A DNA stretch of 28,787 nt from a virus. The first letter of the stretch is position 1. Each line of letters opens with the position of its first letter. Where the stretch lies: positions 1 to 28,787 of IMG/VR virus record IMGVR_UViG_3300046543_000089; one strand, given 5' to 3'. Under the pieces are notes generated by a model, which had not been told where the DNA came from, made no database searches, and saw only the letters and a program-made list of their open reading frames with translations. Both the position numbers and the translations under genes were made by a program. Positions 2,682-27,461 of the stretch are shown here, one piece after another.

Positions 2682-2897
2682 CTACGAACCGCTCGTGTTA
2701 AGCCGTTGGATGATGGTGTTGATGGTGGCGATGATCTGCGCGGTGGTCGCGGTGACCGGCAGCGCCACGAGAGGCACTGCACCGTGCCGCGCGCCGGTCA
2801 TTAGTTCGACGTTTTCCTTCAGCGCGTTGACGATCTTCGCGATGTCCGGCGACAGGTGCGACGTGGTCGGGATCGACGGCTTCTTGATCGCGCTCAT
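2682..2897 (-). CDS. Small hypothetical virion-block protein
   Basis: 71 residues with no recognised domain. The N-terminus (MSAIKKPSIPTTSHLSPDIA) looks extended. It is followed by a helix (IVNALKENVELMTG) and a second Thr/Ile-rich helix near the C-terminus (TAQIIATINTIIQRLN) that could oligomerise. The ATG overlaps the stop of the hub protein gene (ATGA), so translation is coupled. Small helical proteins at this place between the tail hub and the ejection proteins are common in podovirus blocks and are often minor tail parts, but nothing here shows a function. Confidence 0.65.
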   Translation of the reverse strand: MSAIKKPSIPTTSHLSPDIAKIVNALKENVELMTGARHGAVPLVALPVTATTAQIIATINTIIQRLNTSGS

Positions 2898-4726
2898 TGC
2901 TTCCTCAGCTCATCGATGGTGGTGGACATGGTCACGCGCCGCACCGGCGTGTTGCCGGTGATGAGCAGTTCCCAATGGGTCGCCTTGAACCCGGCCGGCA
3001 GCCGCACCGGATCGTCCGAGGTCACACCGATTTCGAACACCAGCTGGTCGTCGGCGAACGCCGCCACCTGGATGCTGCGCACGTCCTCCGGCTCGACAAT
3101 CGGCCGCAGGTCGCTGCCGTTAATCATCAGGTTGTCCACGATGATGTCGTTCGGGCATCCGCCGAGCGACTGGCCGCCGGCGACGCGCGCGTTGAACAGC
3201 GACAGGTTGTAGGCGAGGTCGACCTGGATCTGGTTGTTGTAGGCAAGGCCGCCCTGGATATAGCTGTAGTCAGCCTTCACCTTGAGCGCGCCGAAGTTGG
3301 TCGGCTCGTTCATCTGGAACAGCCGGCTCCTCCACTGGAAGATCGTCGCGTTGTGCGGGTCCGCGTCAAGCTGGTAGATGGCGTTGTCGTCAGCGCTCAC
3401 CGCGTAGATGTTGCTGTTGCGCCGGTCGATATACACACCTGTCGCCGGGAAGTCGTAGGTCGCCAGTGGTGGCGTGTCCGCGCGCGAGAACACGAACGCC
3501 GAGGTCGGGCCCGTGCCGTTGTTGAAGAACCCCATATACATGTTGTTGTAGAGGAGTCCCGCGATCGACACCGGGTTCAGCACCTGCCACTCGTCGCGCG
3601 TGTATAGCGCCTGCGTAATCAGATCCTGCACGCCGGGGCCGATCGCCATCAGTCCGTTCGGGCTCGAGTAGACGATGCCCCACTGGTCGGAGACGATCGA
3701 GCGCTTGCTCGTGCAGGGCTGCAGCACCGAGAGCTTCTCCGAACTCATCGCCGCGGGCGAGGATCCAGTCAGCAGATACGGGTTCGCCTCGGTGCCGACA
3801 AAGAGCGACGTGCCGAAGACGCCGAGCCCGACGATCGGATACTCGGTCGTCTGCATATAGGAGACGGGCCACGCGTGCGGCTTGTACGGCTCGCAGAACC
3901 AGATCTGGTTGCCGGTGAAGCCCGCGAGCATGCCGTTGGGCATCTCGACGAGGCCGCGCATGTCCGATGGCGGCGGGGTGTAGAAGGTCGAGGTGAGCAC
4001 CTCGCCAAGCTGCGTGACGGTGAGCGCATCAGTCGTGGACGTCGTGGGGAGCGCGATCTCCTTCACGAACTGGTACGAGACCGTGGCGGTACCCGTGACC
4101 GTCCGGTAGATGCGAATCTTCGTATAGTTGTAGGCGCCGACCGGCGGCACCTGCAGGGCCGAGAGCGTGACCGTGGCACCCGAGCTATTGCACGTCACCG
4201 TCGCGGCGGGGCTCGGCGCGGACTCTTCGACGATGGTGCCGAACTCGTTGATGAACGTGTAGACGTAGGCGCGCGTCTCGGTCGGCGCGGTGCCGCCCGA
4301 TGCCGAGAGCGTCGGCGCGGCCGTGGGCCCCGGCACGCCCATGTTGTAGTAGAGCCCCGGGTACGGGTAGCCCGGGTTCGAATCCGCCCAGGTGCTCAGC
4401 CCCCAGTGCGTCTTGCGCGGCGAGAAGCCGTCGCTCGTGTAATAGAGCCGCCAGTCACTGCTGTCCGCCAGCACGCCCGCAACGATGTCCACGTCCGAGT
4501 CGAACGTCAGCCACCGGGTCTGGTTGGCCGCCGGGTTGTAGTGTTGGTAGATCGTCTTGACGGCCGAGTTGATCGGCTGGTACGTGAATACCGGCTTGCG
4601 CCAAGGGCGCAACTCTCCCGACTGCAACTTCACGTTGCGCGCCAATTGGGCGTTCATCATCCCGAGCCGCGAGATGCCCGAGCGCGGGATGATGCCGGAG
4701 AAGCCGTCGAGAGCGATCGTGGTCAT
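2894..4726 (-). CDS. Tail hub/nozzle-type protein (P22 gp10-like role)
   Basis: 610 residues from the ATG at 4726, which overlaps the upstream stop (ATGA); an in-frame ATG at 4822 would run deep into that gene and is rejected. The N-terminus (ALDGFSGIIPRSGISRLG) is the Gly/Pro/Arg-containing opening common to podovirus tail-nozzle and packaged-DNA-stabilisation proteins. An Ig-like segment (about 125-240, AYVYTFINEFGTIVEESAPS) follows, then repeated beta-strand units with WF, GLV and NGL turns, suggesting a beta-propeller (about 250-500). It would sit below the head-tail adaptors and close the DNA channel. I infer the role from fold-like pattern, size and location; a receptor-facing hub is the alternative. 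Confidence 0.65.
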   Translation of the reverse strand: MTTIALDGFSGIIPRSGISRLGMMNAQLARNVKLQSGELRPWRKPVFTYQPINSAVKTIYQHYNPAANQTRWLTFDSDVDIVAGVLADSSDWRLYYTSDGFSPRKTHWGLSTWADSNPGYPYPGLYYNMGVPGPTAAPTLSASGGTAPTETRAYVYTFINEFGTIVEESAPSPAATVTCNSSGATVTLSALQVPPVGAYNYTKIRIYRTVTGTATVSYQFVKEIALPTTSTTDALTVTQLGEVLTSTFYTPPPSDMRGLVEMPNGMLAGFTGNQIWFCEPYKPHAWPVSYMQTTEYPIVGLGVFGTSLFVGTEANPYLLTGSSPAAMSSEKLSVLQPCTSKRSIVSDQWGIVYSSPNGLMAIGPGVQDLITQALYTRDEWQVLNPVSIAGLLYNNMYMGFFNNGTGPTSAFVFSRADTPPLATYDFPATGVYIDRRNSNIYAVSADDNAIYQLDADPHNATIFQWRSRLFQMNEPTNFGALKVKADYSYIQGGLAYNNQIQVDLAYNLSLFNARVAGGQSLGGCPNDIIVDNLMINGSDLRPIVEPEDVRSIQVAAFADDQLVFEIGVTSDDPVRLPAGFKATHWELLITGNTPVRRVTMSTTIDELRKQ

Positions 4727-5247
4727 TTGAACTTCGGCGTGAAGCAGATCGGCAGGCGGTTGTCCGGCCCGCGCGAGTCTGGAAGTTTGTCGATCAGCTT
4801 GAAGTTGGCGTCGAGCGCCCACCAGAGCTTGTATCCAAGCTTCAGCCCGCCGCTATTCGTGTGGCAGAAGTGGCGGCCGTCAAGCGTGTGCGCTTCGAAC
4901 TCGGTGAGCGTCGCGCCCTCGTGGACGAGCAGGGTAATCACCCACTCCTTCGGATCGTAGGGAAGCCCAAGCGGCCAGTAGCAGAAGCCGTATGCCGGGT
5001 TTCGCCAGAGCCACCTCACGCGCAGCCACCACTTCTCCCAGCCGATCGGCGCGGGCGCACCTGCGGGCAGGAAGTAGCCGTCGCGCCAGCCAGCGTCGAG
5101 CGGCGCGTCGAACGTCTGGAACCAGCACAGCCAGCTTGGCAAGTAGCCATCGTCCTTGCAGAACAAGGCGATCAGCGGCGCGAGCGGCACCGCGAGCAGG
5201 TAGGTGAACAGCACCTGCAGGAACGTAAAGTAGATGTATTCACTCAT
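4723..5247 (-). CDS. DUF7338-like membrane-associated protein
   Basis: 174 residues. The N-terminus has a strong membrane segment (about 5-30, FTFLQVLFTYLLAVPLAPLI), followed by Trp/Tyr-rich sequence (GWEKWWLRVRWLWRNP, WPLGLPYD) and a more polar C-terminus. This pattern recalls the DUF7338 phage family, whose function I do not know. The ATG overlaps the stop of the Rz gene, so it belongs to the lysis transcript, and its stop overlaps the hub gene start. It could modulate lysis or the membrane, but that is inference from position only. Confidence 0.6.
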   Translation of the reverse strand: MSEYIYFTFLQVLFTYLLAVPLAPLIALFCKDDGYLPSWLCWFQTFDAPLDAGWRDGYFLPAGAPAPIGWEKWWLRVRWLWRNPAYGFCYWPLGLPYDPKEWVITLLVHEGATLTEFEAHTLDGRHFCHTNSGGLKLGYKLWWALDANFKLIDKLPDSRGPDNRLPICFTPKFK

Positions 5248-8715: not shown

Positions 8716-9909
8716 TTACTGCTTACCCGGCTGCCAAAGCGCCTGCCAGCGGGTCTTGTTGATGATGGTCGGGTTGTTGACGCGATACTCTCCCGACTGA
8801 CTCGTGGCGATGCTCATCTGGATCCACGTCGTGCCAGCCGGAACCTTCGCCTCGCCAGAGAAGATCACGTCCTCGTTCATGCCCGAGTTCGATTCGAACT
8901 GCAGGTAATCGCCCGTGCTGAACTGCATCTGCACGTTCAGGCCCTTGTTGTAATCAAGCGCGCCAACGTTGCGCAGCGCGACGCGCACCGAGCAGAACAT
9001 CGTGTCCCCGGGCACAAACCCCCCGTCGGAGATGTCGACGTTGTTGCTATTGAGCAGCAGCACCTGCGCTTGATCCGTCTTCCGATAGACAACCGTCTTG
9101 CCGGTGTACGGGAACGCGGCATCCTCGTATGAGAGGAACGCGTTGGTCTGGTTGATCGACCACGCATCCGGCTCGTTCACCGGCGACGCGCTGTGCAGGT
9201 GGAGGAAGTTGCTGTTGTAGAGCAGGTTCGACATCTCGCCGAACACCGTCTCCGGGAAGACCCCGAAGTACGGCAGGCGCGAGAACTTGTGCGTGTACGG
9301 GTTCTGCAGCGCCGGCACCAGCAGGTCGGCCATCAGGTCCGTGCCATAGCTCGACGGGTGCGTGCCGTCGATCGTGAGGTTCGCGATCCAGCCGCCGAAC
9401 GTGTCGTTCGTGTCGATCGTGGCTTGGCACATGTCGACCAGCGGGATGCCGTAGTACTCGCACAGCATGTAGTAGAAGTACCGATTCTTGTACGCGTCGG
9501 GAGTGCCCGTCTTGGCCGGCGGCACGCAGATGACCGGCAGGACGCCGGCGTTCAGGCAGCCCGTGACCATCTGCTCGATGTAATTCATGTAGGCCGCGTT
9601 CGCCGCCGTGCCGAACGACCCCGATGTCACATCGTTCGTGCCACTCATGATGATGCAGACATCGGGGTTGTACGCGAGCACCTGCGAGGTGAGGCGCGCG
9701 ACGATCTGGAAGCTCTTTTCGCCGGGGACGCCCGCGTTATAAAGCGCGCGCATGCCCGCGCGCCATACGCCCTTCTCCGAGAAGCTGTTCCCGAAGTGCC
9801 ACATGCCATTCACGAGCGTGGCGTTTGCTGCGGTGATCGAGTCGCCAAGCACAACCGCAGTGCGCAGGACAGGCCGCAGGCCCGGTCGGGAAGGATTGCT
9901 GAGTCCCAT
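8716..9909 (-). CDS. SGNH/GDSL-hydrolase tail protein (second copy)
   Basis: 397 residues from ATG 9909. SGNH blocks: GDSIT (22-26, nucleophile Ser24), Gly in NAGVPG (58-63), GTND (90-93, Asn92) and DGTHP (181-185, Asp181/His184). It should be an esterase or deacetylase acting on an acylated surface glycan. The C-terminal 190 residues form a beta-sandwich-like carbohydrate-binding part ending NKTRWQALWQPGKQ, which matches the end of the other SGNH protein in this window (NKTTSEAIWKPGQM). The stop of the preceding small beta-protein is 2 nt away. It probably deacetylates the receptor polysaccharide alongside the tailspike. The in-frame ATG at 10065 lies inside the upstream gene and is rejected. 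Confidence 0.85.
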   Translation of the reverse strand: MGLSNPSRPGLRPVLRTAVVLGDSITAANATLVNGMWHFGNSFSEKGVWRAGMRALYNAGVPGEKSFQIVARLTSQVLAYNPDVCIIMSGTNDVTSGSFGTAANAAYMNYIEQMVTGCLNAGVLPVICVPPAKTGTPDAYKNRYFYYMLCEYYGIPLVDMCQATIDTNDTFGGWIANLTIDGTHPSSYGTDLMADLLVPALQNPYTHKFSRLPYFGVFPETVFGEMSNLLYNSNFLHLHSASPVNEPDAWSINQTNAFLSYEDAAFPYTGKTVVYRKTDQAQVLLLNSNNVDISDGGFVPGDTMFCSVRVALRNVGALDYNKGLNVQMQFSTGDYLQFESNSGMNEDVIFSGEAKVPAGTTWIQMSIATSQSGEYRVNNPTIINKTRWQALWQPGKQ

Positions 9910-9911
9910 GC

Positions 9912-10448
9912 TTACCCCTCGAAGATGGTTGCAGGTTGCCCAGCCGCGGCGCCGTAGACGCTGATCGCGCTGGTGTACGGGAGCGGGGGCGACCACGAGC
10001 CGCCGGGATAGACCGGCAGGCTGCCAGGAGCACCGGGCGCGGCTACACCGACCGGGCTCACCCACAACACTTGCGTGCCAGGGTTGATGACCTCGAGCGA
10101 CTTGCGACTCGCGTTCGACGCAACCATCTGCGTGGCCAGCCCCGTCCAGGTCAGTTCGAACTGCGCGCCCGTGCCGCTGCCGCTCGTCGAGACCTGCGAG
10201 ACCGGGTTGGTCGGGATGCTGCCGAACGCGATGTCCCCCACGTTCTGGATCGAGACGGCAGTGATCGCGCCTGCGGTCACTGCCTCGACCTTGAGCACCG
10301 CCCCGCCCGCGAGGGTGATCGTGTTGTTGACCGCGTAGCTCGCGCCGCTCGCGATGATCGCCGCGTTCGCCAGTCGGCCGTGAACCAGCCCGCTGCGATC
10401 GGTGGGTGTGACGTGCGCCGGGGTGGCGACTACTGGAAAATCAGCCAT
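9912..10448 (-). CDS. Beta-rich minor tail/adhesin protein
   Basis: 178 residues from ATG 10448 (2 nt after the previous stop). Residues about 35-105 carry a pattern widespread in phage virion proteins (NNTITLAGGAVLKVEAVTAG, then SGSGTGAQFELTW). Residues about 113-178 are a compact beta unit (ASRKSLEVINPGTQVLWVSP, then PGGSWSPPLPYTSAISVYGA) of the kind found in small head or tail decoration and spike-adaptor proteins. It directly precedes the SGNH hydrolase gene, as another small beta-protein precedes the first SGNH gene. It may be a structural partner of the hydrolase. The exact role is unknown. Confidence 0.6.
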   Translation of the reverse strand: MADFPVVATPAHVTPTDRSGLVHGRLANAAIIASGASYAVNNTITLAGGAVLKVEAVTAGAITAVSIQNVGDIAFGSIPTNPVSQVSTSGSGTGAQFELTWTGLATQMVASNASRKSLEVINPGTQVLWVSPVGVAAPGAPGSLPVYPGGSWSPPLPYTSAISVYGAAAGQPATIFEG

Positions 10449-15115: not shown

Positions 15116-16120
15116 TTAGTTCGCTGCGAGCAGCAGAGCGACCGCGTCCGGCTGCGTCACTTGGTAGCCGTAGACGTTCAGGCCACGAACCAAGTTGCCG
15201 AAGTCGTTCGGGTTCTGGAGCGACTCGACCTTCGCGATCTGCGAGGCGAACGAGATGCCTGCCTTGTGACCCGCGACGATCGAATGGCGCTTGAGCGTGC
15301 CGCCCACGGTGCCGCCCGAGAAGTCATGGCCCGCAGTCGCGCGCGGCGTGAGGTTGCTCACGTAGACCGTGAAGCGGTCGATCACGCCGATCTTGCCATT
15401 ACGCAGGATCGAGCTGCCGTCGCCCATGAACTGCGCTTGCGCGAGGTTCGACTGCATCAGGATCTGGCGCTCGACCGGCGTGATGACCAGCCAGCGATCC
15501 GTTTCCGGGATGTTCGCTTCGTCCAGCACCGAGCTGAGCGACGTGATGTACGACAGGATGTTCGCCGGCGTGAGGGCGATCGGTGCGGTATCCGTGCCGA
15601 GGTTGAACGAACCCGACACCTTGCCGGCCGTCGCGCCCATGTTGGTCGCGGCGCCACCGTTGTACGTGCCGAGCAGCACGTCCTTGTCGATGTTCATCTT
15701 CATCTGCATGGACGCGTCGTTCGTGAACATGTCCATGAGCTTCGGCTTGGCCTGATACTCGAGAACGTTGTTCACGTTCACGCCGAAGTACTTGCCCTTG
15801 TTGATCTGAAGCGTGATCGTCGACGGCGTCGGCACGTCGTAGTTCAGGTTCTGACCAACCGAGTAGCTGTAGATGTTGATCGTCGGGATGGTGTTGATGA
15901 TGACCGTGTCACCCATGCCCGAGATGTCGCCCTGCCAGTCCGTGTTGGCGATCTCGCCGAACACGGTGGCTGCGTAGAACTTCTGCGCGAGCTTGCCCGA
16001 CCAGAGGGCCGGAATGAAGGTGCCCGAATAGGCCGTGCCGCCGTAAGCGACCTGACCTGCCGGGGAGTTAAAGCCACCGCCGTTGATCGGATATACTGCG
16101 CCGGGAGTGATCGTGGACAT
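15116..16120 (-). CDS. Major capsid (coat) protein
   Basis: 334 residues. The N-terminal region (GTFIPALWSGKLAQKFYAAT, then FGEIANTDWQGDISGMGDTV) and the spaced TPSTITLQINKGKYFGVNVN, then LTPANILSYITSLSSVLDEA, IPETDRWLVITPVERQILMQ, and the C-terminal RHSIVAGHKAGISFASQIAK match the P22-coat/N4-gp56-like HK97-fold family of podoviruses. It follows the scaffold gene by 48 nt and has a strong ribosome site (TTAGGAG, six bases before ATG 16120). The length is normal for the family. It would form the icosahedral shell with the scaffold encoded upstream. Confidence 0.9.
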   Translation of the reverse strand: MSTITPGAVYPINGGGFNSPAGQVAYGGTAYSGTFIPALWSGKLAQKFYAATVFGEIANTDWQGDISGMGDTVIINTIPTINIYSYSVGQNLNYDVPTPSTITLQINKGKYFGVNVNNVLEYQAKPKLMDMFTNDASMQMKMNIDKDVLLGTYNGGAATNMGATAGKVSGSFNLGTDTAPIALTPANILSYITSLSSVLDEANIPETDRWLVITPVERQILMQSNLAQAQFMGDGSSILRNGKIGVIDRFTVYVSNLTPRATAGHDFSGGTVGGTLKRHSIVAGHKAGISFASQIAKVESLQNPNDFGNLVRGLNVYGYQVTQPDAVALLLAAN

Positions 16121-17794: not shown

Positions 17795-17962
17795 TCAACC
17801 CGTTTGCGAAGGGGGTTTCGTGTCGACGATGAATGGATGGTTGTCCATCTGTCGCACGATGAAGCGCGGCGCGTCGGGCGGCGACATCAAGTTGAGGATC
17901 CGGACGGCTTCCTCGAGCGAGAAGCCTAGCCGGTGCATCTCCTGTATTTGCTCACCCACCAC
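17795..17962 (-). CDS. Small protein overlapping the portal 3' end
   Basis: 55 residues, beginning with GTG at 17962, 6 nt after a GGAG ribosome site and 8 nt before the end of the portal stop codon. The sequence reads MVGEQIQEMHRLGFSLEEAV, then RILNLMSPPDAPRFIVRQMD, then NHPFIVDTKPPSQTG. The helical HRLGFSLEEAVRILNLM part followed by PRFIVR-M-NHPFIV looks like a genuine small folded domain, and short genes just after the portal are usual in related blocks. The function is unknown. An internal ATG (residue 9) is an alternative start but lacks spacing from a ribosome site. Confidence 0.6.
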   Translation of the reverse strand: MVGEQIQEMHRLGFSLEEAVRILNLMSPPDAPRFIVRQMDNHPFIVDTKPPSQTG

Positions 17963-20213
17963 GGCTGGCTCCGAAGTTGTTCGTCACCGGCGCCCCGCTC
18001 GAGAGCTGCGCGCCCGGACCTGGACGCGGACCAGGAGCACCCTGGCCCTGCTGACCCTGCGGCGCTGGCGGCGCACCCGGCAGCAGGGGCACCTGCGACG
18101 GCCGGCCGGTCATGATCTCCTGGAGCTCCTGCGGCACCAGCGGCGCTTGGCCCGGAAGCATGACGCCGTGCTTAATCATGAACGCCTGCGCGAACTGCTG
18201 TTGCTGCATCTTCTGCTGCTGCGCCGCGGCGGCCTGCTGCTCCTGCGCCCAGCGCTGCTTGAGGACCGGCAGCGGCGCCACAATACCGGCATCCATGTCG
18301 AGCGTCTTGGCCGCGTTGCGGATGAGTTCGGCGATGCCTTCCTTGCCGACCACGTCCTGCACCATCTGGTTGCCGAGCGCGACCTGCAGGAACTGGCTCT
18401 GCTTCTGCTGCGCCGCGTCCTTCTGCATGAGCGCGACCGCGCCGCGCGCGACGACATTGACCGCGCCCTTGAGGTCGGAGTCGCTGCTGTAGCGCATGTT
18501 GTAGTAGTAGAGCCGGTCGATCGCCTGCTCGATAACCCGGTCATCGATGTTGCCGATGACCTGCTTGATCGACTTACCGGCGTTGCCCATCAGCATCGAC
18601 ATGCCCGAGGCCGTACGGCCAGCGCCGCCCGAAGGCGAGTCGCCGGTCATGTAGCGCGGGATGCCGGTGTATTCGTCGGCCAGCGCGGAGAACTGGTTGT
18701 AGACCATCATCAGTTCCTGGCTCATCGACTGCGGCTGGAAGAACTGCATCGGCGGCTGGCTGCTGTTGGACAGCGGATCGCTCGTGACCTGCCAGATCTT
18801 CCAGGGGTAAATCTGCGTGAGCTTCTCGCCCTCGGGCAGCCGATCGACGTTGTAGACGACCTGCGGCCCGCTCGCGAGCCCCATGTTGTTGACCAGCGCG
18901 CGGGCCGCCGCGTTGCAGATGCCCTGCGTGTCGCGGCACAGGTCCGCCACCGAGTTGCCCCAAAACGCGCCGGGGACTTCCTCGTACGATGCTTTGTAGT
19001 ACGGCTTGCGGCCGAGCGGGTCGGGGTTGATCGCAGCCTTGATGACCCAACTGCCGATGAGCCATGCCTCGATCGGGTACTCGGCGAGCGGATCCTGGAT
19101 CTCGGTCTCGTCCATGCCCCAGTCGATCAGCATCTGCCCCTGCACCGAGCCCCAAAACTGGAGCGCGTCGATCAGCTCGGAGGGGTTGGTCGCGACGCCG
19201 ATCGTCGCCTTGCCTTCAGCCGTCGCCTTGGCGGTGTCGACGTAGAGCCATTCCCGCAGGCCGCCCTTGCCGTAGGCATCGAGCACCGCGCGAATCGCTT
19301 GGTCCGAGTAGCCTTCGACGCCAATCAGCGCATTCAGGTCCGCACGTTGCAGCTTGTGGCGCTCGATCAGCCAGCTGTCCTCGACGTTCGACGCGTCCGG
19401 CGCCGGGTACATCATGAACGGGTCGACGCGCTCCCACTCGAGCGAGAGCTCCTGCTGCACGTCCGGCGCCCATCCGCCCGGGCCCTGCACCCACTTCAGC
19501 TTCGGGCGCTTGCGCACCACCGGCCCCTTCATGAAGGCCGAGGGGAATGTCGTGATGTCGTCGATGAATTCCGCGAGCGCGCGCAGCCAGCCGCCGCCGA
19601 GGAGCTGCGTCTGCATCTTGCGCTCCATCCGGTCGGCGTCCTGCTGCGCCATGTCTTGGATCTGCGCGAGGCCGATGTCCTTGAGCGCCATCAGCATCTG
19701 GCGCACCTCGAAGTCCGACGGGTTCTGGCCTTGCTGCATCGCCGCGGCAAGCTGCTGCTGCGCGATCTGCATGATCTCTTCGATCAGCTGCGGCGGCATG
19801 TCAGCGACCGGCGGCGCCTCGAGCGTCCACGGCTTGTCGTCGGTCGAGTTGAGCAGCACGTCGCGGATCCAAGATGCCGCCGCGCGGCACTTGTTCGACG
19901 TCAGCATCATGTAGATGGTCGTGCTGTTCTGCTCGGCAAGCTGCGCGAGCATATCCGGGTCGTACTCGCCGCGGCGCTGGCGCACCGACTGCAGCATCTT
20001 GATCTCGGCGGTCATCTCCTTGGCTTGGCGGGCGTCCCACCAGAGCTTCTTGATGTGCCCCGCGAACCCCTGCACGACCGAGTCGTTGTTCGCCGCCTGC
20101 GCGGCCGCGCGCTCCTCCGACTGCAGCTGGCTGAGCGACTTCATCTGCATGATGCCGCCAACCGAAGTCGATCCTGGCGCTTGGCCCGAGGTGAGGTTGA
20201 TGGCCTGTGCCAT
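17952..20213 (-). CDS. Portal protein
   Basis: 753 residues, in the large podovirus portal class. The core has VPGAFWGNSVADLCRDTQGI with ICNAAARALVNNMGLASGPQ, the portal helix hairpin region. Later come YTGIPRYMTGDSPSGGAGRT, then ASGMSMLMGNAGKSIKQVIG and NIDDRVIEQAIDRLYYYNM, a pattern typical of these portals. The C-terminus is Gln-rich helical (WAQEQQAAAAQQQKMQQQQF) and Pro/Gly-rich, possibly a barrel or disordered tail. It forms the dodecameric DNA entry ring and docks the terminase. Start ATG 20213 makes TAATG with the SGNH gene stop. Confidence 0.9.
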   Translation of the reverse strand: MAQAINLTSGQAPGSTSVGGIMQMKSLSQLQSEERAAAQAANNDSVVQGFAGHIKKLWWDARQAKEMTAEIKMLQSVRQRRGEYDPDMLAQLAEQNSTTIYMMLTSNKCRAAASWIRDVLLNSTDDKPWTLEAPPVADMPPQLIEEIMQIAQQQLAAAMQQGQNPSDFEVRQMLMALKDIGLAQIQDMAQQDADRMERKMQTQLLGGGWLRALAEFIDDITTFPSAFMKGPVVRKRPKLKWVQGPGGWAPDVQQELSLEWERVDPFMMYPAPDASNVEDSWLIERHKLQRADLNALIGVEGYSDQAIRAVLDAYGKGGLREWLYVDTAKATAEGKATIGVATNPSELIDALQFWGSVQGQMLIDWGMDETEIQDPLAEYPIEAWLIGSWVIKAAINPDPLGRKPYYKASYEEVPGAFWGNSVADLCRDTQGICNAAARALVNNMGLASGPQVVYNVDRLPEGEKLTQIYPWKIWQVTSDPLSNSSQPPMQFFQPQSMSQELMMVYNQFSALADEYTGIPRYMTGDSPSGGAGRTASGMSMLMGNAGKSIKQVIGNIDDRVIEQAIDRLYYYNMRYSSDSDLKGAVNVVARGAVALMQKDAAQQKQSQFLQVALGNQMVQDVVGKEGIAELIRNAAKTLDMDAGIVAPLPVLKQRWAQEQQAAAAQQQKMQQQQFAQAFMIKHGVMLPGQAPLVPQELQEIMTGRPSQVPLLPGAPPAPQGQQGQGAPGPRPGPGAQLSSGAPVTNNFGASRGG

Positions 20214-21385
20214 TACATTTGCCCCGGTTTCCAGATGGCTTCAGACGTGGTCTTGTTCCAGAGCGTGAAGTTGTTCACCGCGTAGACCCCGACGTCCTGC
20301 ACGAACAGCTGCGGCGTCGCATTGCCGGGAGTCGCCGGCGCCACGATCTCCTGGCAGAACACGTACTCGCCGTTCGTCTTGACCTGATTGATCGGCGCGG
20401 CCGTGCCGCCGGAGTCGAATGCGAGCGCTGCCGTGTAGCCATTGGGGCTCGCCGCGAGACCCGTGACCTTCAGGTGGCCCGAGTAGACCAGCGTGTCGCC
20501 CGCAGAGTACGACGCGGAGCTCGCCCCCGCACCGAACAGCGCATAGGCGCCCGTGCCGCTCGACTTCGTGTACGTGAAAGTGTTGCCGGTGTAGGGAGCA
20601 GCCGCCGCCGCGCTCGCGCCGGTCGCACCCGTAAAGTTCGGGCCCCAACCCGTCGGGTTCGTGCCGCCGGCCGCGAACGAGCCGTTCTGCAGCATGTTCG
20701 CTTGGTTGTTGGAAGCCGCTTCCGAGAAGCCCGCGAGGTACACCGGCGCAATCAGCGAGCCCGGGTTCGCGAGCGACGCGCCGAACGCATCCGAGATGGT
20801 CTGCGCGCCCAGGTCGTTGGGGTGAGTGCCGTCGGCAGAGAGCGTCGCCTTATAGTTTCCCGTCGATGCGTCGACGGTCAGGCGGAACATGTCGAGCAGC
20901 GGCAGCCCGTAGTACTGCGCGAGCATGTAGTAGAAGCGCTGGACGTTGCGGCAGGCAACCGGGTAGTTGTTGTTCGCCGGCGGCGTCGTGAGGATGACCG
21001 CCACGCCCGCGTTCAGCAGCGTGCGCACCGTCTGCTCGAGCGTGTTCATCAGCGCGGTGATGCCCGCGTTGGTGCCGCAGGTGGGCAGATCGTTGGTGCC
21101 GGACTGCAACAGGCACACATCCGCGCCCTTCGCGATCACGTCGGTGATGACCCGGGACAGGATCTGCGCGGCCGTCTGGCCGCTGACGCCGGCGTTGCTC
21201 AAGACCTGGAACCGGCCGCCGCCCTTCATCAGCGTCGCTTCGGCGTAGCCATTCGAGAGGGTCCAGACTCCACCGCCCGAGACGGCAGAGTTGGATTGCG
21301 TGATCGAATCCCCGAGGGGGATGGCGCGCAGCAGCGCCCGTTTGGCGAGGACTGCGCTGAATGGGGCGAAGGCGCGCATGCCCAT
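20213..21385 (-). CDS. SGNH/GDSL-hydrolase tail or head protein (first copy)
   Basis: 390 residues. SGNH blocks: GDSIT (25-29, Ser27), Gly in NAGVSG (64-69), GTND (96-99, Asn98) and DGTHPN (185-190, Asp185/His188). The C-terminal half is a beta-sandwich-like region (NNQANMLQNGSFAAGGTNPT and onwards), ending NKTTSEAIWKPGQM, related to the ending of the second SGNH protein at 8716-9909. It should hydrolyse ester (acetyl) groups on a surface glycan. Its position between terminase and portal is unusual for a receptor-modifying enzyme. It is translationally coupled to the small beta-protein before it and the portal after it. Confidence 0.85.
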   Translation of the reverse strand: MGMRAFAPFSAVLAKRALLRAIPLGDSITQSNSAVSGGGVWTLSNGYAEATLMKGGGRFQVLSNAGVSGQTAAQILSRVITDVIAKGADVCLLQSGTNDLPTCGTNAGITALMNTLEQTVRTLLNAGVAVILTTPPANNNYPVACRNVQRFYYMLAQYYGLPLLDMFRLTVDASTGNYKATLSADGTHPNDLGAQTISDAFGASLANPGSLIAPVYLAGFSEAASNNQANMLQNGSFAAGGTNPTGWGPNFTGATGASAAAAAPYTGNTFTYTKSSGTGAYALFGAGASSASYSAGDTLVYSGHLKVTGLAASPNGYTAALAFDSGGTAAPINQVKTNGEYVFCQEIVAPATPGNATPQLFVQDVGVYAVNNFTLWNKTTSEAIWKPGQM

Positions 21386-21740: not shown

Positions 21741-23144
21741 TCAAACCCACCTAAATGGGGACGCACCGATTACCTGCGCTTTGGTCCGCGTCGAGCCGCC
21801 CGTCAGGTTGCCGTCGGCGTGCATCGCGGCGTACTGGTGCGAGTCGGCGATGTGCGAGTGCCGGTTCTTCTCCGGGGTGTCGTCAACGTCACCGTTGTTG
21901 CGCAGCTTGTAGCGATAGCCGCCGCGCAGCGCGTTGATGAGCGCCTTGCAGCGCGGGTCGATCAGGTGGGCGGGCTTGCCGTCCACCATCCGGGTCAGCC
22001 ACTGGTCGACCGCCGACACCCGCTGCACGATCGAGTTGCTGCGCGCGGAGATGACGCGGAAGCCCTCTTGCTTCAGGATGTCGAACACGCTCCTCTCGTC
22101 GGTCTGCGCGCGCTGGGTGCCTGCCGGGTCGCCTACCACGAGCACATCCATCCCCGCGAAGCGCGAGGCCAGCAGCGGCCTCAATTTCTCGCGGATGAAC
22201 CGCAGCTCACCCATCCCGTCGCTGGTCAGCTCGTCGTACGTGAGGAAGCGCCCCTGCGGGTCGATCTGGTTGATCGTGCAGGCCGGCGTCAGCCCGAAGT
22301 CGTGCCCGAGGATCAGCGGCCGCGTGCTCATGCGGATCGGCCGCAACTCGCTCTTGGCGACGTGCAGGTCCATGTCGAAGGAGCGGAACACCGGCTGGCC
22401 GGAGAGCGACTTGCCGAATTTGCCGTGGACAAAGATGTCGATCCAGTCCTGCGACTTCCCTTCGCACAAGTTCTCGTAGTAGTCGTCCTTCAGGTAGTGC
22501 AGCCAGTCGGCAGACGGCGAGAGCCCCGACGGCTGGAAGAACACCGCGGCGTTGGCCGGCGGGTTCGACAGGTACGTCTCCCAAAACGTGTCAAGGTCAG
22601 GGGGGTTGCTCATCCCCCAAAACTTGTCGATCTGGTTGCCGTAGTCGTCGCACGCGCCCACGCCGTTGTCCGCCTTCGATGGGTAGCGCCCCAGGCGCCC
22701 CTGCAGCGTGTCGAACACCTCGGGGTTCAGCTCCCGGAACTCGTCCGCGATCGCGAAGGTCGCCTGCAGCGAGAGCAGCCGCCGCACGTCGCCCGCGTCG
22801 TCGAGGCCCCGGAACAGCACTTCGCACTCGACGTCGGAGAACTTGAGCACGAACCGGTAGTTGGTCTTCTCGAGCATGCCGGCGAGGCCGTCAGGGTACC
22901 AGCGCAGGAAGTCGGGGATCGACGTGTCGCGCAGCTGCTCGCGGGACTGCCGAATCCAGATCGCGCGCGAGCGCCGGATGCCGTCGCGGCACGCGCGGAT
23001 GCGCTTCGACTCGTAGGCGATCTTCAGGATGCCCGCGGTGGTCTTCGTCGAGCCGACCGGGCCCACGACCAAGTTGATGAACTTGTCGGAGGCGAAGAAC
23101 CCCGAGAGGGTGCGGGGGGGCTGGTAGCTCAGCTGCTCGCTCAT
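21741..23144 (-). CDS. terL: Terminase large subunit
   Basis: 467 residues. ATPase domain: Walker A GPVGSTKT (28-35), Walker B ATFAIADE (128-135, Asp134/Glu135) and a coupling-type segment FWGMSNPPD (175-183). Nuclease domain of RNase H type: Asp282 in LILGHDFGLTP, Asp339 in VLVVGDPAG and Asp434 in HSHIADSHQY. It drives DNA into the prohead through the portal and cuts concatemers. The length and motif order are complete. ATG 23144 overlaps the small-subunit stop (ATGA). The Walker A loop has Val-Gly-Ser instead of the classic Gly-rich loop but keeps GxxGxxKT. Confidence 0.93.
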   Translation of the reverse strand: MSEQLSYQPPRTLSGFFASDKFINLVVGPVGSTKTTAGILKIAYESKRIRACRDGIRRSRAIWIRQSREQLRDTSIPDFLRWYPDGLAGMLEKTNYRFVLKFSDVECEVLFRGLDDAGDVRRLLSLQATFAIADEFRELNPEVFDTLQGRLGRYPSKADNGVGACDDYGNQIDKFWGMSNPPDLDTFWETYLSNPPANAAVFFQPSGLSPSADWLHYLKDDYYENLCEGKSQDWIDIFVHGKFGKSLSGQPVFRSFDMDLHVAKSELRPIRMSTRPLILGHDFGLTPACTINQIDPQGRFLTYDELTSDGMGELRFIREKLRPLLASRFAGMDVLVVGDPAGTQRAQTDERSVFDILKQEGFRVISARSNSIVQRVSAVDQWLTRMVDGKPAHLIDPRCKALINALRGGYRYKLRNNGDVDDTPEKNRHSHIADSHQYAAMHADGNLTGGSTRTKAQVIGASPFRWV

Positions 23145-24668: not shown

Positions 24669-24925
24669 TTCGCAAGTCTCCAATCGTTGGCCAGGATGTC
24701 GGTCTGGTCGGGTTGCCACGAGGTGAACGCGTCGTCTTCCTGGACCACGTCGATCACCGCAGCCTTCCGGTGGTGTCCGCAGCGCACGTACTCAACGTCC
24801 GTGATCTCGAGCCACTTGCCGCCGTTCCACTCGGTGCGCGTCACGCGCTCGCCCATGCGCAGCCACTGAAGGGCCACGCCGAAGTCGACTATGTCAGTCG
24901 TGAGCGGCAGGCTTAGCTGCTGCAT
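24665..24925 (-). CDS. Tad2-like (DUF2829) protein, copy 1
   Basis: 86 residues from ATG 24925, which has a strong ribosome site (AGGAGGG, seven bases before). Core motifs are VDFGVALQWLRMGERVTRTE with WNGGKWLEI, and SWQPDQTDILANDWRLAK at the C-terminus. The RTEWNGGKW and SWxPxQTDILAxDW blocks are close to the DUF2829/Tad2 consensus, closer than in copy 2. It probably forms a tetramer that sequesters Thoeris/CBASS signalling molecules. The gene is among the first of the leftward block, which would suit early expression. The longer frame to 25000 is rejected on the ribosome-site evidence. Confidence 0.8.
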   Translation of the reverse strand: MQQLSLPLTTDIVDFGVALQWLRMGERVTRTEWNGGKWLEITDVEYVRCGHHRKAAVIDVVQEDDAFTSWQPDQTDILANDWRLAK

Positions 24926-25016
24926 GAGATAGCCCTCCTGCAAATGCGAAGACAATGTCCAGATACATGCAGACGGCAAGCCCGTTGAGCATGTACGCAT
25001 AGATCGGCAGCATCAT
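24894..25016 (-). CDS. Small hydrophobic peptide, first gene of leftward block
   Basis: 40 residues (MMLPIYAYMLNGLAVCMYLD, then IVFAFAGGLSHAAAKPAAHD) with one membrane-spanning stretch (about 3-27) and a short polar tail. AGGAG lies eight bases before ATG 25016, so initiation is credible. A second ATG follows at once. It overlaps the first Tad2-like gene by 32 nt in another frame. It may be a membrane microprotein or a translated leader that sets translation of the anti-defence gene. No family is known. Confidence 0.5.
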   Translation of the reverse strand: MMLPIYAYMLNGLAVCMYLDIVFAFAGGLSHAAAKPAAHD

Positions 25017-25040
25017 CTGGACAACTCCTGTGTGTTTGGT

Positions 25041-25077
25041 CGTGAGCACGGCCCCTCGGGTAAGAAACCTGCTCACG
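25041..25077 (-). promoter_or_regulatory. Leader stem-loop before the leftward block
   Basis: CGTGAGCA (25041-25048) and TGCTCACG (25070-25077) are perfect complements around a 21-nt loop, 25-60 nt upstream of the first leftward start codon. It could be an operator dyad on DNA or a leader hairpin in RNA. Two further G-C pairs can form beyond a one-base bulge. Confidence 0.5.
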
Positions 25078-25096
25078 GTGGCCAGCTTAGTGGGCG

Positions 25097-25244
25097 CAAG
25101 CACCTAACCGGCAAGGAAAAGTTAGCAGGTATGTATGCGTATGTCCAAATATTTTTTCGTGTGCGTAGGATGTATGTATGCCTAAAAAATAGGAGGCGCG
25201 ATACGAGTAAGGGGTAATCGGGGTGCCCCCCCGGGGGGTGCTTG
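25097..25244. repeat. Separated half-sites CAAGCACC and GGTGCTTG
   Basis: CAAGCACC at 25097-25104 and its complement GGTGCTTG at 25237-25244 flank 132 nt containing the GTTAGCAGGT element and the first G/C runs. The same two halves form compact hairpins at 25724-25750 and 26383-26409. Confidence 0.55.
25121..25130 (+). repeat. GTTAGCAGGT element in the divergent region
   Basis: A 10-bp copy of the intergenic element, here followed by ATGTATGCGTATG instead of the TATA box. It stands between the leftward leader and the structured region. Confidence 0.55.
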
Positions 25245-25276
25245 GTCCTCCTGGGGGGTGGGGGTGGGGGCCAAGC
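25211..25276 (+). other. Extreme G/C-run segment with G-quadruplex and hairpin potential
   Basis: Runs in order: GGGG (25211), GGGG (25220), seven C (25226-25232), six G (25233-25238), then GGGGGG-T-GGGGG-T-GGGGG (25253-25270). The last three runs with the preceding six-G run satisfy a G-quadruplex pattern with five-or-more-G tracts. Alternatively, 25240-25250 pairs with 25266-25276 in an 11-bp stem with two G-U pairs. No reading frame with known content explains it. Confidence 0.6.
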
Positions 25277-25760
25277 CTGAATGCGACGCACTCGCGTTGA
25301 CAGGCGGTGAATTCACCGATCGACCACTAGCAAGGGAGCCCTGTTCCCGAGTAACGGCAAGCCCCTAAGCCCGGAAGGTTGTAAGCGGGGACCATGCAAG
25401 CGGACGCGTAGACGCTCTGTTAAGGGGTAGACACGCAATGTCGCCAGCGGCAAGTGGTGCGATCGGATACTAGGCACTCCTACGAGTGAGCACGTAAAGC
25501 CGAGGTCGCGGGTCAGGTTCAATCACTGACCGGTAGGGATAACTCACTAAAGCGTGAGCCAGATGAACGGCGCGTTTACGAGTGGCGAATTCCTAGGTGG
25601 CGCGAAACCCGCGGGACGCCACAAGCACGGAGGGAGTGTGCGCATTCTCTCTGTGTAAGTCCTACGCCGCTGAATCGATAACCAAGCTATAGGCGGCGTG
25701 GGCAAGAGTTCCGTAAGGACTCTCAAGCACCTTAATCCTAGGGTGCTTGATACCACTTAC
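25277..25760 (+). ncRNA. Putative structured non-coding RNA or long structured 5' leader
   Basis: About 480 nt without a convincing gene but dense in perfect local stems: CGGTGAATTCACCG palindrome (25305-25318); CACTC/GAGTG (25475-25488); GGTCAG/CTGACC (25511-25531) with loop GTTCAATCA; CTCAC/GTGAG (25543-25558); GTGGCG/CGCCAC (25597-25622); a 10-bp stem 25661-25670 with 25693-25702; AGAGTTCC-GTAA-GGACTCT (25705-25723) with a GNRA tetraloop; and TCAAGCACC/GGTGCTTGA (25723-25750). The GNRA loop is correct only on the plus strand, which is also the direction of the following gene. No match to tRNA, tmRNA, RNase P or intron signatures was convincing. The boundaries are approximate. Confidence 0.5.
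25724..25750 (+). repeat. CAAGCACC stem-loop, copy 1
   Basis: CAAGCACC, a ten-base loop (TTAATCCTAG), then GGTGCTTGA. It ends 25 nt before the ATG of the 178-aa gene and just before its ribosome site (CAGGGG). It is 24 of 27 positions identical to copy 2, with the stem fully conserved. Confidence 0.7.
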
Positions 25761-25775
25761 TGACAGGGGTTTATC

Positions 25776-26312
25776 ATGGCTAAGGCATTTGAACTGGCAT
25801 CCGGCGCCGATCTCGTGGTCTACATCGGCAAGATTGGTCGCGCAGGTGCCAAGTTGGACAAGATGATCCAACACGCTGCCGTCCACGCAATTGGTCACGC
25901 CATTGCGCATGGCGACATCAAGTACGCGAATGAATTGCTTGAGGCATTGCCCAAGGGCGGTCGCAAGCAAGCGTTTGTGAAGTACATGGAAACGTTTGGT
26001 CCGTTTGCGTTCAGTACGCAAGCGAAGAAGTTTGGCTTCTTCAAGCGCGATGGTCTCGCGTTCGATGGTGCGGCATTGCTTGAAGGACAGCAATGGCACG
26101 AGACCATCAAGGAGGAACTGGTGTCCACGCTTGACGTGGAGGATATGGTTGCCAAGATGCTCAAGCGCATCGAGGCTGCCGTGAAGAAGGATCCGAAGTC
26201 GGTCAAGGGCATGGATCTGTACAGCGCAGTGAGCGCAGCTGTGGCTGAGTACCATTCCACGAGCATCACGGAAGATGACGACGTCGAACTGCCGGCTGTC
26301 AAGGCAGCGTGA
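25776..26312 (+). CDS. Conserved-looking early phage protein of unknown function
   Basis: 178 residues. Helical N-terminal half: VYIGKIGRAGAKLDKMIQHA, then VHAIGHAIAHGDIKYANELL, then EALPKGGRKQAFVKYMETFG and PFAFSTQAKKFGFFKR. It has an acidic C-terminus (SITEDDDVELPAV). The order of small-helix, K-L...I, AI.HGD...A..L..AL..G.R..A....FGPF resembles a protein I remember as common in early regions of short-tailed phages, without known function. The lack of catalytic motifs and the basic helices allow nucleic-acid binding. It is the first rightward gene, with a CAGGGG ribosome site. Its leader holds the duplicated stem-loop, which could be an autoregulatory target. Confidence 0.75.
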   Translation: MAKAFELASGADLVVYIGKIGRAGAKLDKMIQHAAVHAIGHAIAHGDIKYANELLEALPKGGRKQAFVKYMETFGPFAFSTQAKKFGFFKRDGLAFDGAALLEGQQWHETIKEELVSTLDVEDMVAKMLKRIEAAVKKDPKSVKGMDLYSAVSAAVAEYHSTSITEDDDVELPAVKAA

Positions 26313-26485
26313 TGTTCCGTAGCCACGTCGCCATCATGATGGAGCGCGACGCGGTCTATGCCGCGCGCTCTCCCGATCAACCCAAGCACCTCAATCGTGG
26401 GGTGCTTGAGCGGCTGCCTCGTATCTGGAGAGGTGGCAAGCAGTACGTTGTGAAGCAGGATGGTAAGTTGCAAGCCATCTTGTAG
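26312..26485 (+). CDS. Small basic protein coupled to the 178-aa gene
   Basis: 57 residues starting at ATG 26312 within TGATG: MFRSHVAIMMERDAVYAARS, then PDQPKHLNRGVLERLPRIWR, then GGKQYVVKQDGKLQAIL. It is basic, with a helix and a beta-hairpin (RIWRGGKQYVVKQDGKLQAI), and could bind nucleic acid. Its codons 25-33 encode the second copy of the CAAGCACC stem-loop, so part of its sequence may be constrained by RNA structure rather than by protein. A GGCGGTG/CACCGCC hairpin follows 10 nt after the stop. Confidence 0.6.
   Translation: MFRSHVAIMMERDAVYAARSPDQPKHLNRGVLERLPRIWRGGKQYVVKQDGKLQAIL
26383..26409 (+). repeat. CAAGCACC stem-loop, copy 2 (inside a gene)
   Basis: CAAGCACC, a ten-base loop (TCAATCGTGG), then GGTGCTTGA. 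The stem is identical to copy 1 and seven of ten loop bases agree. It lies within the 57-aa coding frame. Confidence 0.7.
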
Positions 26486-26805
26486 CTTGATATCTGGCGG
26501 TGGCTAATTCACCGCCCGTTCCATTAGCAGATACGAACCCTATATGCCATAAGGGTTTGAGGTATATAACTAGCTATCTGGCTATTTGTCCGGTAGAAAT
26601 ATGGTGTATCGCGTGAGAGTCCACGAGCCTAAGTTAAATACTCGTGGCGCACATGGTATCTCTCACTCTCATACAGCACGCACCCATAAATTCGCCGACA
26701 TTTGCGTGGATGCTGTGGAATCAAGGACTTAGCGCAACACGAACCGCCCGATACCTGGCACTTTACCGCCAGATACCTGCTCACAACCATGAGGATTAAA
26801 CCCAC
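26486..26805 (+). other. 320-nt intergenic stretch with nested hairpins
   Basis: No gene is supported here. It holds: stem GGCGGTG/CACCGCC (26496-26516), terminator-like but without a U-run; AACCCT/AGGGTT (26536-26557); a two-tier structure GTGAGAG/CTCTCAC (26613-26619, 26660-26666) enclosing CCACGAG/CTCGTGG (26621-26627, 26641-26647); and CTGGC/GCCAG (26755-26772) flanked by two GATACCTG copies (26750, 26772). AT content is higher than in the leftward block. Confidence 0.6.
26496..26516 (+). terminator. Stem-loop after the 57-aa gene
   Basis: Perfect 7-bp stem GGCGGTG/CACCGCC with loop GCTAATT, 10 nt after the stop at 26485. CGTTCCATT follows, so a weak terminator or an mRNA 3'-end structure. 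Confidence 0.45.
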
Positions 26806-27138
26806 ATGAACGCGCAACTTATTCAGACGCTCGTCGACTTCCCGGACGACAAGCCATTCGTGCGCATCACAAGCTGGCACATGATGGGCTGTTCATTGTA
26901 TGGGGTTGCGCTCGATCATCCGCGTCTCGGATGCCAGTCAATCAAGTCCAGCACTATCGTGGCATTTGATCCTGACCTCGGCATGGTCGAGACATTAAAC
27001 ACGCTATACGTGTTGGACTTGACTAACCCACGATTCAAGCCACGCATCGTGGAGTCCATTGTTCCACTGCCGACGCGCACGGATCCGGTCCTGTTGTTGA
27101 CGGATCAACGCAAGGGTTTACCCGAAGCTGTGGCGTAA
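26806..27138 (+). CDS. Small protein, DUF6957-like pattern
   Basis: 110 residues. VRITSWHMMGCSLYGVALDH, then PRLGCQSIKSSTIVAFDPDL, then MVETLNTLYVLDL form a beta-rich core: W...G..L.G....HPR......I..S.I......VeTlNTlY.L. I recall this order from DUF6957-type proteins of proteobacteria and their phages, of unknown function. The C-terminus (PRIVESIVPLPTRTDPVLLL) is extended. The ribosome site is weak (GAGG, 11 bases before). A six-codon minicistron (ATG 26789) ends in TGA overlapping the start as ATGA and may help initiation. Confidence 0.65.
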   Translation: MNAQLIQTLVDFPDDKPFVRITSWHMMGCSLYGVALDHPRLGCQSIKSSTIVAFDPDLGMVETLNTLYVLDLTNPRFKPRIVESIVPLPTRTDPVLLLTDQRKGLPEAVA

Positions 27139-27163
27139 CCCACTAACCATCTGTTCTTTCCGC

Positions 27164-27192
27164 TAGACAACCCGCTAACGTGTGTATATATT
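27164..27192 (+). promoter_or_regulatory. Sigma70-type promoter before the AP2 gene
   Basis: TAGACA (27164-27169), a 17-bp spacer, then TATATT (27187-27192); each hexamer has five of six consensus bases. Transcription would start near 27199, about 30 nt before the AP2-protein ATG. Confidence 0.65.
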
Positions 27193-27209
27193 CAACCCAT
27201 CGCGTTAGC
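27174..27209 (+). promoter_or_regulatory. Dyad GCTAACG/CGTTAGC around the promoter
   Basis: GCTAACG (27174-27180) lies in the promoter spacer and CGTTAGC (27203-27209) just past the expected start site; the perfect 7-bp inverted halves are 22 bp apart, bracketing the -10 box. This is a typical place for a repressor. The half-site shares its core with the GTTAGC elements found elsewhere. Confidence 0.5.
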
Positions 27210-27227
27210 ATCAACCCGGAGTAGCGC

Positions 27228-27461
27228 ATGTACTCAGACAGTGGTGAGAACATCAACCCGCTTGGCCGAGTCGGCGTGATGTCGGAGCAGTTGAAATACA
27301 GCGTGGTGTTCCGGGCATACATCTACGTCAAGCAGGCTGGTGGATACAAGCGGATCAGCCTCGGCACGCACGCCACATTGGATGAGGCAGCGCACGCCTA
27401 CAACAAGGCCGCCATTCGTTACCACGGTGACGCGGCCAAGCTAAACCCTGTCGGAACCTGA
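27228..27461 (+). CDS. Stand-alone AP2-domain protein
   Basis: 77 residues. After a short N-terminus, FRAYIYVKQAGGYKRISLGT, then HATLDEAAHAYNKAAIRYHG and DAAKLNPV is a complete AP2 signature: strands (YIYVKQ, YKRISLG), then LGT..T.dEAA.AYn.AAi.yhG..AkLN with the amphipathic helix. AP2 domains bind GC-rich DNA through the three strands. In phages they usually sit on HNH homing nucleases; here no nuclease part is present, so it could be a regulator or a remnant. The start at 27228 is supported by GGAG six bases before. Confidence 0.8.
   Translation: MYSDSGENINPLGRVGVMSEQLKYSVVFRAYIYVKQAGGYKRISLGTHATLDEAAHAYNKAAIRYHGDAAKLNPVGT

Follow-up and report, generated by a model that had tools for sequence, protein, structure and literature searches.

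A structured RNA at the head of the rightward, phrog_1448-led genes of environmental phages

Closest described systems and gene context of the locus

To our knowledge, few large structured RNAs are known from phages, and none of them has an established function. In phage HK022, the put RNA, located between the early promoter and the first terminator, mediates anti-termination. ROOL and GOLLD RNAs are encoded by phages and prophages, often near tRNA islands, and their function is unknown (PMC12286853); the ROOL RNA studied measures ~659 nt, and many GOLLD RNAs exceed 800 nt (PMC12286853). The sequence analyzed here in its entirety (hereafter, the window) is the 28.8-kb IMG/VR virus record IMGVR_UViG_3300046543_000089, in which a structured, non-coding stretch lies directly 5′ of a gene of protein family phrog_1448. 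This phrog_1448 leader RNA resembles ROOL and GOLLD in being large, pseudoknotted, phage-encoded, and non-coding, in being supported by covariation, and in lacking a known function. It differs from them by being shorter (400–560 nt), by having neither a match to an Rfam model nor tRNAs nearby, and by always heading an operon that starts with phrog_1448. The likeness to GOLLD and ROOL drawn in the initial annotation of the window thus holds for style only, but not for sequence, covariance model, or proximity to tRNAs. As a model match and tRNAs are lacking, and as the fixed genomic context is a different one, the RNA is assigned to a new family, to which ROOL and GOLLD are the closest in style. 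Whether the window provides the founding sequence of a family of structured phage RNAs of ~400–560 nt, with which transcription of the rightward (by its position, early) unit begins and which exist as free RNA, is in our judgment evenly balanced.

The virion genes of the window, among them those for an internal virion protein (2894–4822), the major head protein (15116–16120), a portal-like protein (17952–20213), and the terminase (TerL; 21741–23144), are located on the minus strand; the rightward genes start at position 25776, and the structured stretch takes up the greater part of the divergent interval separating the leftward virion unit from the rightward unit. GDSL lipase/esterase-like proteins are also encoded among the virion genes (8716–10065 and 20213–21385, both on the minus strand), one of them adjoining the portal gene. 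The first rightward gene (25776–26312, plus strand) encodes a phrog_1448 protein of 178 aa (PHROGs E 2.4e-29), for which an all-helical core was predicted (pLDDT 75). Comparison of this predicted structure with the PDB resulted in no fold match, so the protein gives no hint at a function. Between the phrog_1448 gene and the next clear gene, ~320 nt (26480–26800, plus strand) contain no evident gene. Further 3′, a 77-aa ORF (27228–27461, plus strand) encodes a DNA-binding AP2 domain, lacks a nuclease domain, and resembles what is left of an HNH/AP2 homing endonuclease.

When compared with Rfam, the window yielded no match at the gathering score and, at E ≤ 5, only two spurious sub-threshold matches; nor did the RNA at the loci of its relatives (see below) match any Rfam covariance model. 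The covariance check proposed initially was thus carried out and left the element unassigned. Self-splicing introns, tmRNA, RNase P, ribozymes, and riboswitches were ruled out because none of the Rfam models matched. ARAGORN detected neither a tRNA nor a tmRNA in the window, and no tRNAs were found in the relatives' loci scanned. Using blastn, no DNA similar to the window was found in 50,697 cultured phage records, and the leaders of two groups of relatives (groups A and B) were without a match in cultured phages as well. An earlier description of a phrog_1448 leader RNA was not found in the open-access literature.

A cultured carrier with a confirmed match to the RNA was not among the collections searched. 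The cultured phages Vibrio VPp1 and Acinetobacter Aristophanes resemble the window in that plus-strand structured stretches are located 5′ of the homologous early gene (phrog_1448), but their leaders do not match any of the RNA models R1–R3 and another small gene intervenes. In Rhizobium phage RHph_TM3_14A (MN988472, 17522–18201), the TerL of which is related (38% identity), GGGGGGTGGGGGAGGGGG lies in a divergent intergenic region whose plus strand is structured (z −2.85 versus −1.89) and which has, at the corresponding place, a tract similar to that at 25227–25275 of the window. Its downstream genes, however, are not phrog_1448 and no RNA model matches, the likeness being one of architecture only. 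Pseudomonas phage Rollin (TerL, 43%) was dropped as a comparison, the corresponding region being unannotated and containing a run of N. More than 9 kb of its record (OR577172.1, 51782–61282) are without annotated genes despite leftward ORFs, i.e., the record is under-annotated.

Fold of the RNA in the window

The initial annotation had described stacked stems on a structured plus strand between 25277 and 25760, which folding of this body of the RNA bore out. The plus strand reached −195.8 kcal/mol (z −3.94), and none of 100 dinucleotide shuffles was as good, compared with a z of −0.72 for the minus strand, where 22 of 100 shuffles were as good. For 25200–25765, plus-strand folding resulted in a z of −4.06. 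When the whole window was tiled, the plus-strand tile from 25678 was the most extreme of 142 (z −4.1); that the minus strand of this tile also reached −4.1 is due to the tile being full of symmetric hairpins. Since 25277–25580 alone folded at chance level (z −0.63), the case against chance, as far as the single sequence is concerned, rests on long-range pairing and on the 3′ part of the element, the last third of which is where the perfect hairpins sit.

The element is larger than first delimited and extends from about 25190 to about 25775, as a G-rich stretch (25227–25275) and a predicted closing helix (25206–25216/25751–25761) belong to one unit with 25277–25760; the original limits were thus too narrow, the stems within them correctly placed. 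Upstream, a promoter-like region (25123–25192, plus strand; direct repeat D2) consists of two GTATGTATG-type repeats (25123–25141 and 25166–25184) followed by AAAAAATAGG; it is the presumed start of rightward transcription, its promoter function being inferred. The 5′ strand of the closing helix comes next (pairing probability 0.92–0.98; predicted from the single sequence only). This helix is strong in the window and in some members of group B, but its position is inconsistent among the relatives, which is why it is kept as a prediction and rejected as a general feature. The C/G-rich 5′ domain (25227–25275, plus strand) contains a 12-bp stem (25227–25238/25247–25258; probability 0.95) and ends in GGGGGGTGGGGGTGGGGG. 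A pattern of its G-rich stretch matched one other viral contig, that of relative L003, at the corresponding place; the tract found at the place of GGGGGGTGGGGGTGGGGG is C-rich in group A relatives and G-rich again in RHph_TM3_14A. Located just 3′ of the promoter-like repeat, GGGGGGTGGGGGTGGGGG (25252–25270, plus strand) has G-quadruplex potential.

Within the body of the RNA, again on the plus strand, the T-arm-like loop noted initially (25511–25531) was recovered as a 6-bp stem, GGUCAG/CUGACC, with a pairing probability of 1.0, followed by GGUAGGGAUA (the feature as a whole spanning 25511–25541). Group A relatives contain a 6-bp hairpin that covaries, with both partners changed in 4 of 6 pairs, and that has (G)GUAGGGAUA 3′ of it; homology of the two hairpins is suggestive, not proven. 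A GUGGCG/CGCCAC hairpin (25582–25622; probability 0.72) precedes a 14-bp hairpin (25625–25656; probability 1.0), which is the most stable of the element and had escaped the initial annotation. The 10-bp stem 25661–25670/25693–25702, which had not, extends to 11 bp (probability 0.92); it encloses …GAAUCGAUAACCAAGCUAUAG and, at 25661–25702, occupies the position that the covarying core stem has in the relatives. The bulged stem with a GNRA tetraloop (25705–25723) is likewise present, with a GUAA loop (probability 0.82) and without a U-tract, at the place where group A has an intrinsic terminator. A terminal 11-bp hairpin (25723–25750), matched by model R1 with 22.5 bits, is followed, at 25751–25775, by the 3′ strand of the predicted closing helix and by a linker with the ribosome-binding site (AGGGG, 25765–25769). 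The terminal hairpin recurs, with 89% identity (repeat D1; R1, 14.1 bits), just 3′ of the phrog_1448 gene (26383–26409, plus strand); this second copy is possibly an RNA-processing site.

A protein-coding reading of the leader was rejected because no frame is open or conserved, the longest one on the plus strand measuring 34 aa, and because the ORFs present, two of 69 aa on the minus strand, did not match any phage protein family. The absence of a protein frame had already been noted initially, and a conserved frame, which had been named as a finding that would speak against a structured RNA, was not found.

Relatives, linkage to phrog_1448, and covariation

A single-protein search with the phrog_1448 protein of the window revealed no relative. 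Via TerL, 62 related contigs were retrieved, 11 of which carry a phrog_1448 gene in the same arrangement, and a profile built from the phrog_1448 proteins of these 11 led to 55 loci in viral contigs (related contigs are given L numbers here). When the 900-nt leaders of the 55 loci plus the window, L003, and L013 were compared by blastn, 49 formed one component; blastn did not link the leaders of the window, L003, and a few others, whose divergence is too great. With nhmmer, the leader of the window was collinear with those of L006 (query 63–682; E 3e-4) and L003 (41–691; E 9e-4). The contigs of L002 and L055, whose TerL is more than 80% identical to that of the window, stop shortly before the leader is reached. 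A 16-mer common to the window and L064 was discarded, as its matches were mostly due to chance. In bacterial genomes, phrog_1448 was not found, hence no prophage was identified. A search of complete relatives for a phage-type RNA polymerase found none, the control being likewise silent. An excess of folding confined to the plus strand was observed for L046 (z −4.4), L005 (−4.4), L013 (−5.7), L006 (−3.0), and L003 (−2.9), and no excess for L033, L027, and L045 (z about −0.4).

A DNA pattern of the core module only (see below), which holds no protein information, matched 21 of 2.9 million viral contigs, 13 of them already known from the protein search and 8 new. Six of the new ones carry phrog_1448 immediately 3′; the other two break off, but have the same terminase and portal. 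Overall, phrog_1448 adjoins the RNA in 19 of the 21 contigs and the remaining 2 are cut by the contig end, i.e., RNA and gene are tightly linked. The RNA was never observed without the downstream operon. Some phage contigs also carry, in the leftward part of the divergent region that holds the RNA, the Rhizobiales sRNA Atu_At1 (RF02496) above the gathering score (L084:2353–2458(−), L085:2333–2439(−), L089, L090, and L114:1137–1243(−)), a hint that the host is alphaproteobacterial and that one of its sRNAs has a phage-borne copy.

Covarying pairs in homologous phages, which the initial annotation had named as its test, were found in the relatives at the same position. In the full-length leader of group A (RNAalifold, n = 10 sequences), 93 pairs were predicted, with 94% of the cells paired and 39 of the 93 pairs changed on both sides. 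Compensatory cells amounted to 108, versus 34 after shuffling and 12–17 when the partner was slid by 1–3 columns. As the structure was derived from its own alignment, the slid control favors the structure with regard to paired cells, which makes the compensatory counts the stronger measure; as the sequences of group A are closely related, the cell counts overstate the number of independent events. The rows of alignments A3, A6, and A7 were picked and trimmed by eye.

The 3′ module of group A is an H-type pseudoknot (GUUAUG/CAUAAC with CCCUUGAGUG/CACUCAAGGG; 99% paired), the second stem of which covaries. That of group B is a different pseudoknot, composed of an invariant GCGCC/GGCGC and a 5-bp stem, all five pairs of which are compensatory (score 0.576 versus 0.152). 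A core module, consisting of a 10-bp stem, CAAAG, an inner hairpin, and CCCAUA, is present in groups A and C and in L064, L066, L087, and L113, its alignment comprising three clades and several singletons; group B lacks it and has a different pseudoknot module instead. In the 10-bp core stem, both partners changed in 9 of 10 pairs and every cell is paired; 16 of the 19 pairs of the module are compensatory (score 0.82, versus 0.19 shuffled and at most 0.18 slid). Independent, pattern-based extraction yielded ~8 quite different 10-bp stems, nearly all of them perfectly paired. The unpaired motifs CAAAG...CCCAUA and AUAUCG...ACCAA are invariant in the relatives. The covariation indicates that evolution preserves the fold, and we hold with high confidence that the relatives represent a real, selected RNA family.

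The RNA might merely be a structured 5′ end that keeps host nucleases away from the early mRNA or spaces the ribosome, in which case nothing but a stable fold would count. The fast turnover of sequence, the different 3′ modules of groups A and B, and the position of the ribosome-binding site, which in most relatives is in a mostly unpaired linker past the terminal hairpin, can be accommodated by such a role, but invariant unpaired motifs and pseudoknots exceed what stability needs and a terminator (see below) would defeat the purpose, which leaves this explanation rather improbable.

The window meets the criterion for a leader of this kind (400–560 nt of non-coding sequence directly 5′ of phrog_1448, in a divergent intergenic region) and has the GTGTGTATA/GTATGTATG repeat and A-tract at its 5′ end (25166–25192). 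Model R1, which was built without the window, found 25723–25750 with an E of 5e-4 over 372 kb and of 5e-6 over 3.8 kb; this terminal hairpin, (U)CAAG...CUUGA, is kept ~25 nt 5′ of the start codon in group A, L064, and L066. The second-best match of the core model R3 in the region is exactly at 25661–25702, but it is weak (9.6 bits, E 0.17), and the window yielded no match to the 3′ module of group A or to that of group B. The window is a divergent member, the covariation having been measured in its relatives, not in itself; it is joined to the family by its position, gene order, promoter-like repeat, terminal hairpin, and collinear nhmmer matches, with the T-arm-like hairpin as a suggestive addition. 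Its membership in the phrog_1448 leader RNA family is considered probable. Were the fold of the window a product of chance, with an RNA existing only in the relatives, the unremarkable folding of its 5′ half, the nonsignificant core match, and the lack of a close homologue of its leader would be explained, but not a z of about −4 for the whole element, unmatched by any of 100 shuffles and on one strand only, nor the gene order, promoter-like repeat, and terminal hairpin in common with the relatives; we consider chance a very improbable explanation.

Ends of the RNA and possible modes of action

In nearly all relatives, GTGTGTATA/GTATGTATG and an A-tract, often followed by ACGTAA, are located 460–620 nt 5′ of the gene, and the 5′ end of nearly all members comprises a GTGTGTATA or GTATGTATG repeat, an A- or T-tract, and then a C- or G-rich tract. 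Repeat and tract are read here as the promoter region of the family, which is unproven. The same promoter-like element and C-tract also occur in a TerL relative (L038:6890–7250(−)) in which the leader is shorter and another gene comes first; the promoter block is therefore older or more mobile than the RNA.

At the other end, 14 of 44 leaders have an intrinsic terminator (a stem followed by at least five T) after the RNA, compared with 0.63 expected from shuffles, none in the control segment, and 2 on the reverse strand. The stem of the terminator varies in kind (a pseudoknot arm, a separate hairpin, the last hairpin, or two in tandem), but the T-tract keeps its position, which suggests that termination itself is selected. 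Past this position follow the terminal hairpin, the unpaired linker, and the ribosome-binding site. In one clade, group A, the terminator separates the RNA from the rightward genes, and no promoter was found between terminator and gene. No terminator was found in the window (24900–27300), and L003 and group B lack one as well.

Hairpins and G/C tracts could also act as DNA, for instance as a replication origin or a primer/R-loop region, for which the divergent intergenic position would be suitable, as would the long G- or C-tracts just 3′ of the promoter in most members. As the folding is strand-specific, the covariation includes G-U pairs, and the terminators are oriented with transcription, a DNA element is hardly credible.

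With a terminator 5′ of the first gene and no promoter in between, the RNA is either the product itself, with mRNA made by read-through, or a regulator of termination. For the former, which is the preferred reading, RNA polymerase would start at the conserved repeat/A-tract promoter (itself inferred) as infection begins, and the RNA would fold while emerging from the polymerase. Its release would be brought about by the intrinsic terminator in one clade and by cleavage at the conserved terminal hairpin in the others, including the window, with read-through supplying the mRNA. The free RNA may then serve as a stable RNA or RNA–protein particle during host takeover, possibly together with the phrog_1448 protein. 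Because the window has neither a terminator nor a significant core match, a free RNA would here need processing; the second copy of the terminal hairpin would fit a processing site, which might free the RNA in the window. In T7, processing sites occur between early genes. Transcript evidence is lacking and the function is inferred; a free-standing, separate early RNA is given somewhat less than an even chance. Speaking against it is the constant linkage to the downstream operon, which is not required of a trans-acting RNA.

This linkage is in line with the main rival, ranked next, a cis-acting leader for anti-termination or attenuation, which acts on its own polymerase in a put-like manner or switches between terminator and read-through and thereby makes the operon conditional. 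So is the location of the RNA, 3′ of the promoter-like repeat and 5′ of the first gene, and so is its arrangement in group A, directly 5′ of an intrinsic terminator, sometimes of two in tandem, with no promoter before the gene and with the terminator stem being one arm of the pseudoknot. However, a terminator is missing from the window, L003, and group B, terminator-like sites in the early regions of group A that were scanned barely outnumber those in shuffles, and 400–560 nt is far larger than the known put RNAs. The likeness to the put RNA of phage HK022 (mentioned in PMC6256539) applies to the group A relatives, in which a structured RNA lies between the early promoter and the first terminator of the early operon; the phrog_1448 leader RNA differs by its much larger size and multiple pseudoknots, by the lack of a terminator in the window, and by an interaction with polymerase that is only inferred. 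Cis action of this kind, though the strongest competitor of the free-standing RNA, is on the whole unlikely.

The initial annotation had left it at a new structured RNA, either free-standing or a 5′ leader, which is supported; the element indeed lies at the head of the rightward genes. What has been shown computationally is the strand-specific fold of the window, the fixed linkage to phrog_1448, and, in the corresponding place of the relatives, compensatory changes and pseudoknots. Dozens of environmental phage contigs carry the RNA; as Rfam does not detect it, current annotation misses it. That it is tied to one place, the start of the rightward operon, and to one protein family provides a functional handle that is absent for GOLLD and ROOL. 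Clades with and without a terminator, and two pseudoknot modules in one slot, amount to a natural experiment from which the requirements of such RNAs may be learned. It is a tentative idea that a multi-pseudoknot RNA is made first, is released as a particle, and, jointly with the phrog_1448 protein, redirects the host or its RNA polymerase; if true, the RNA would be an RNA-based early takeover factor and represent a new class of large phage RNA.
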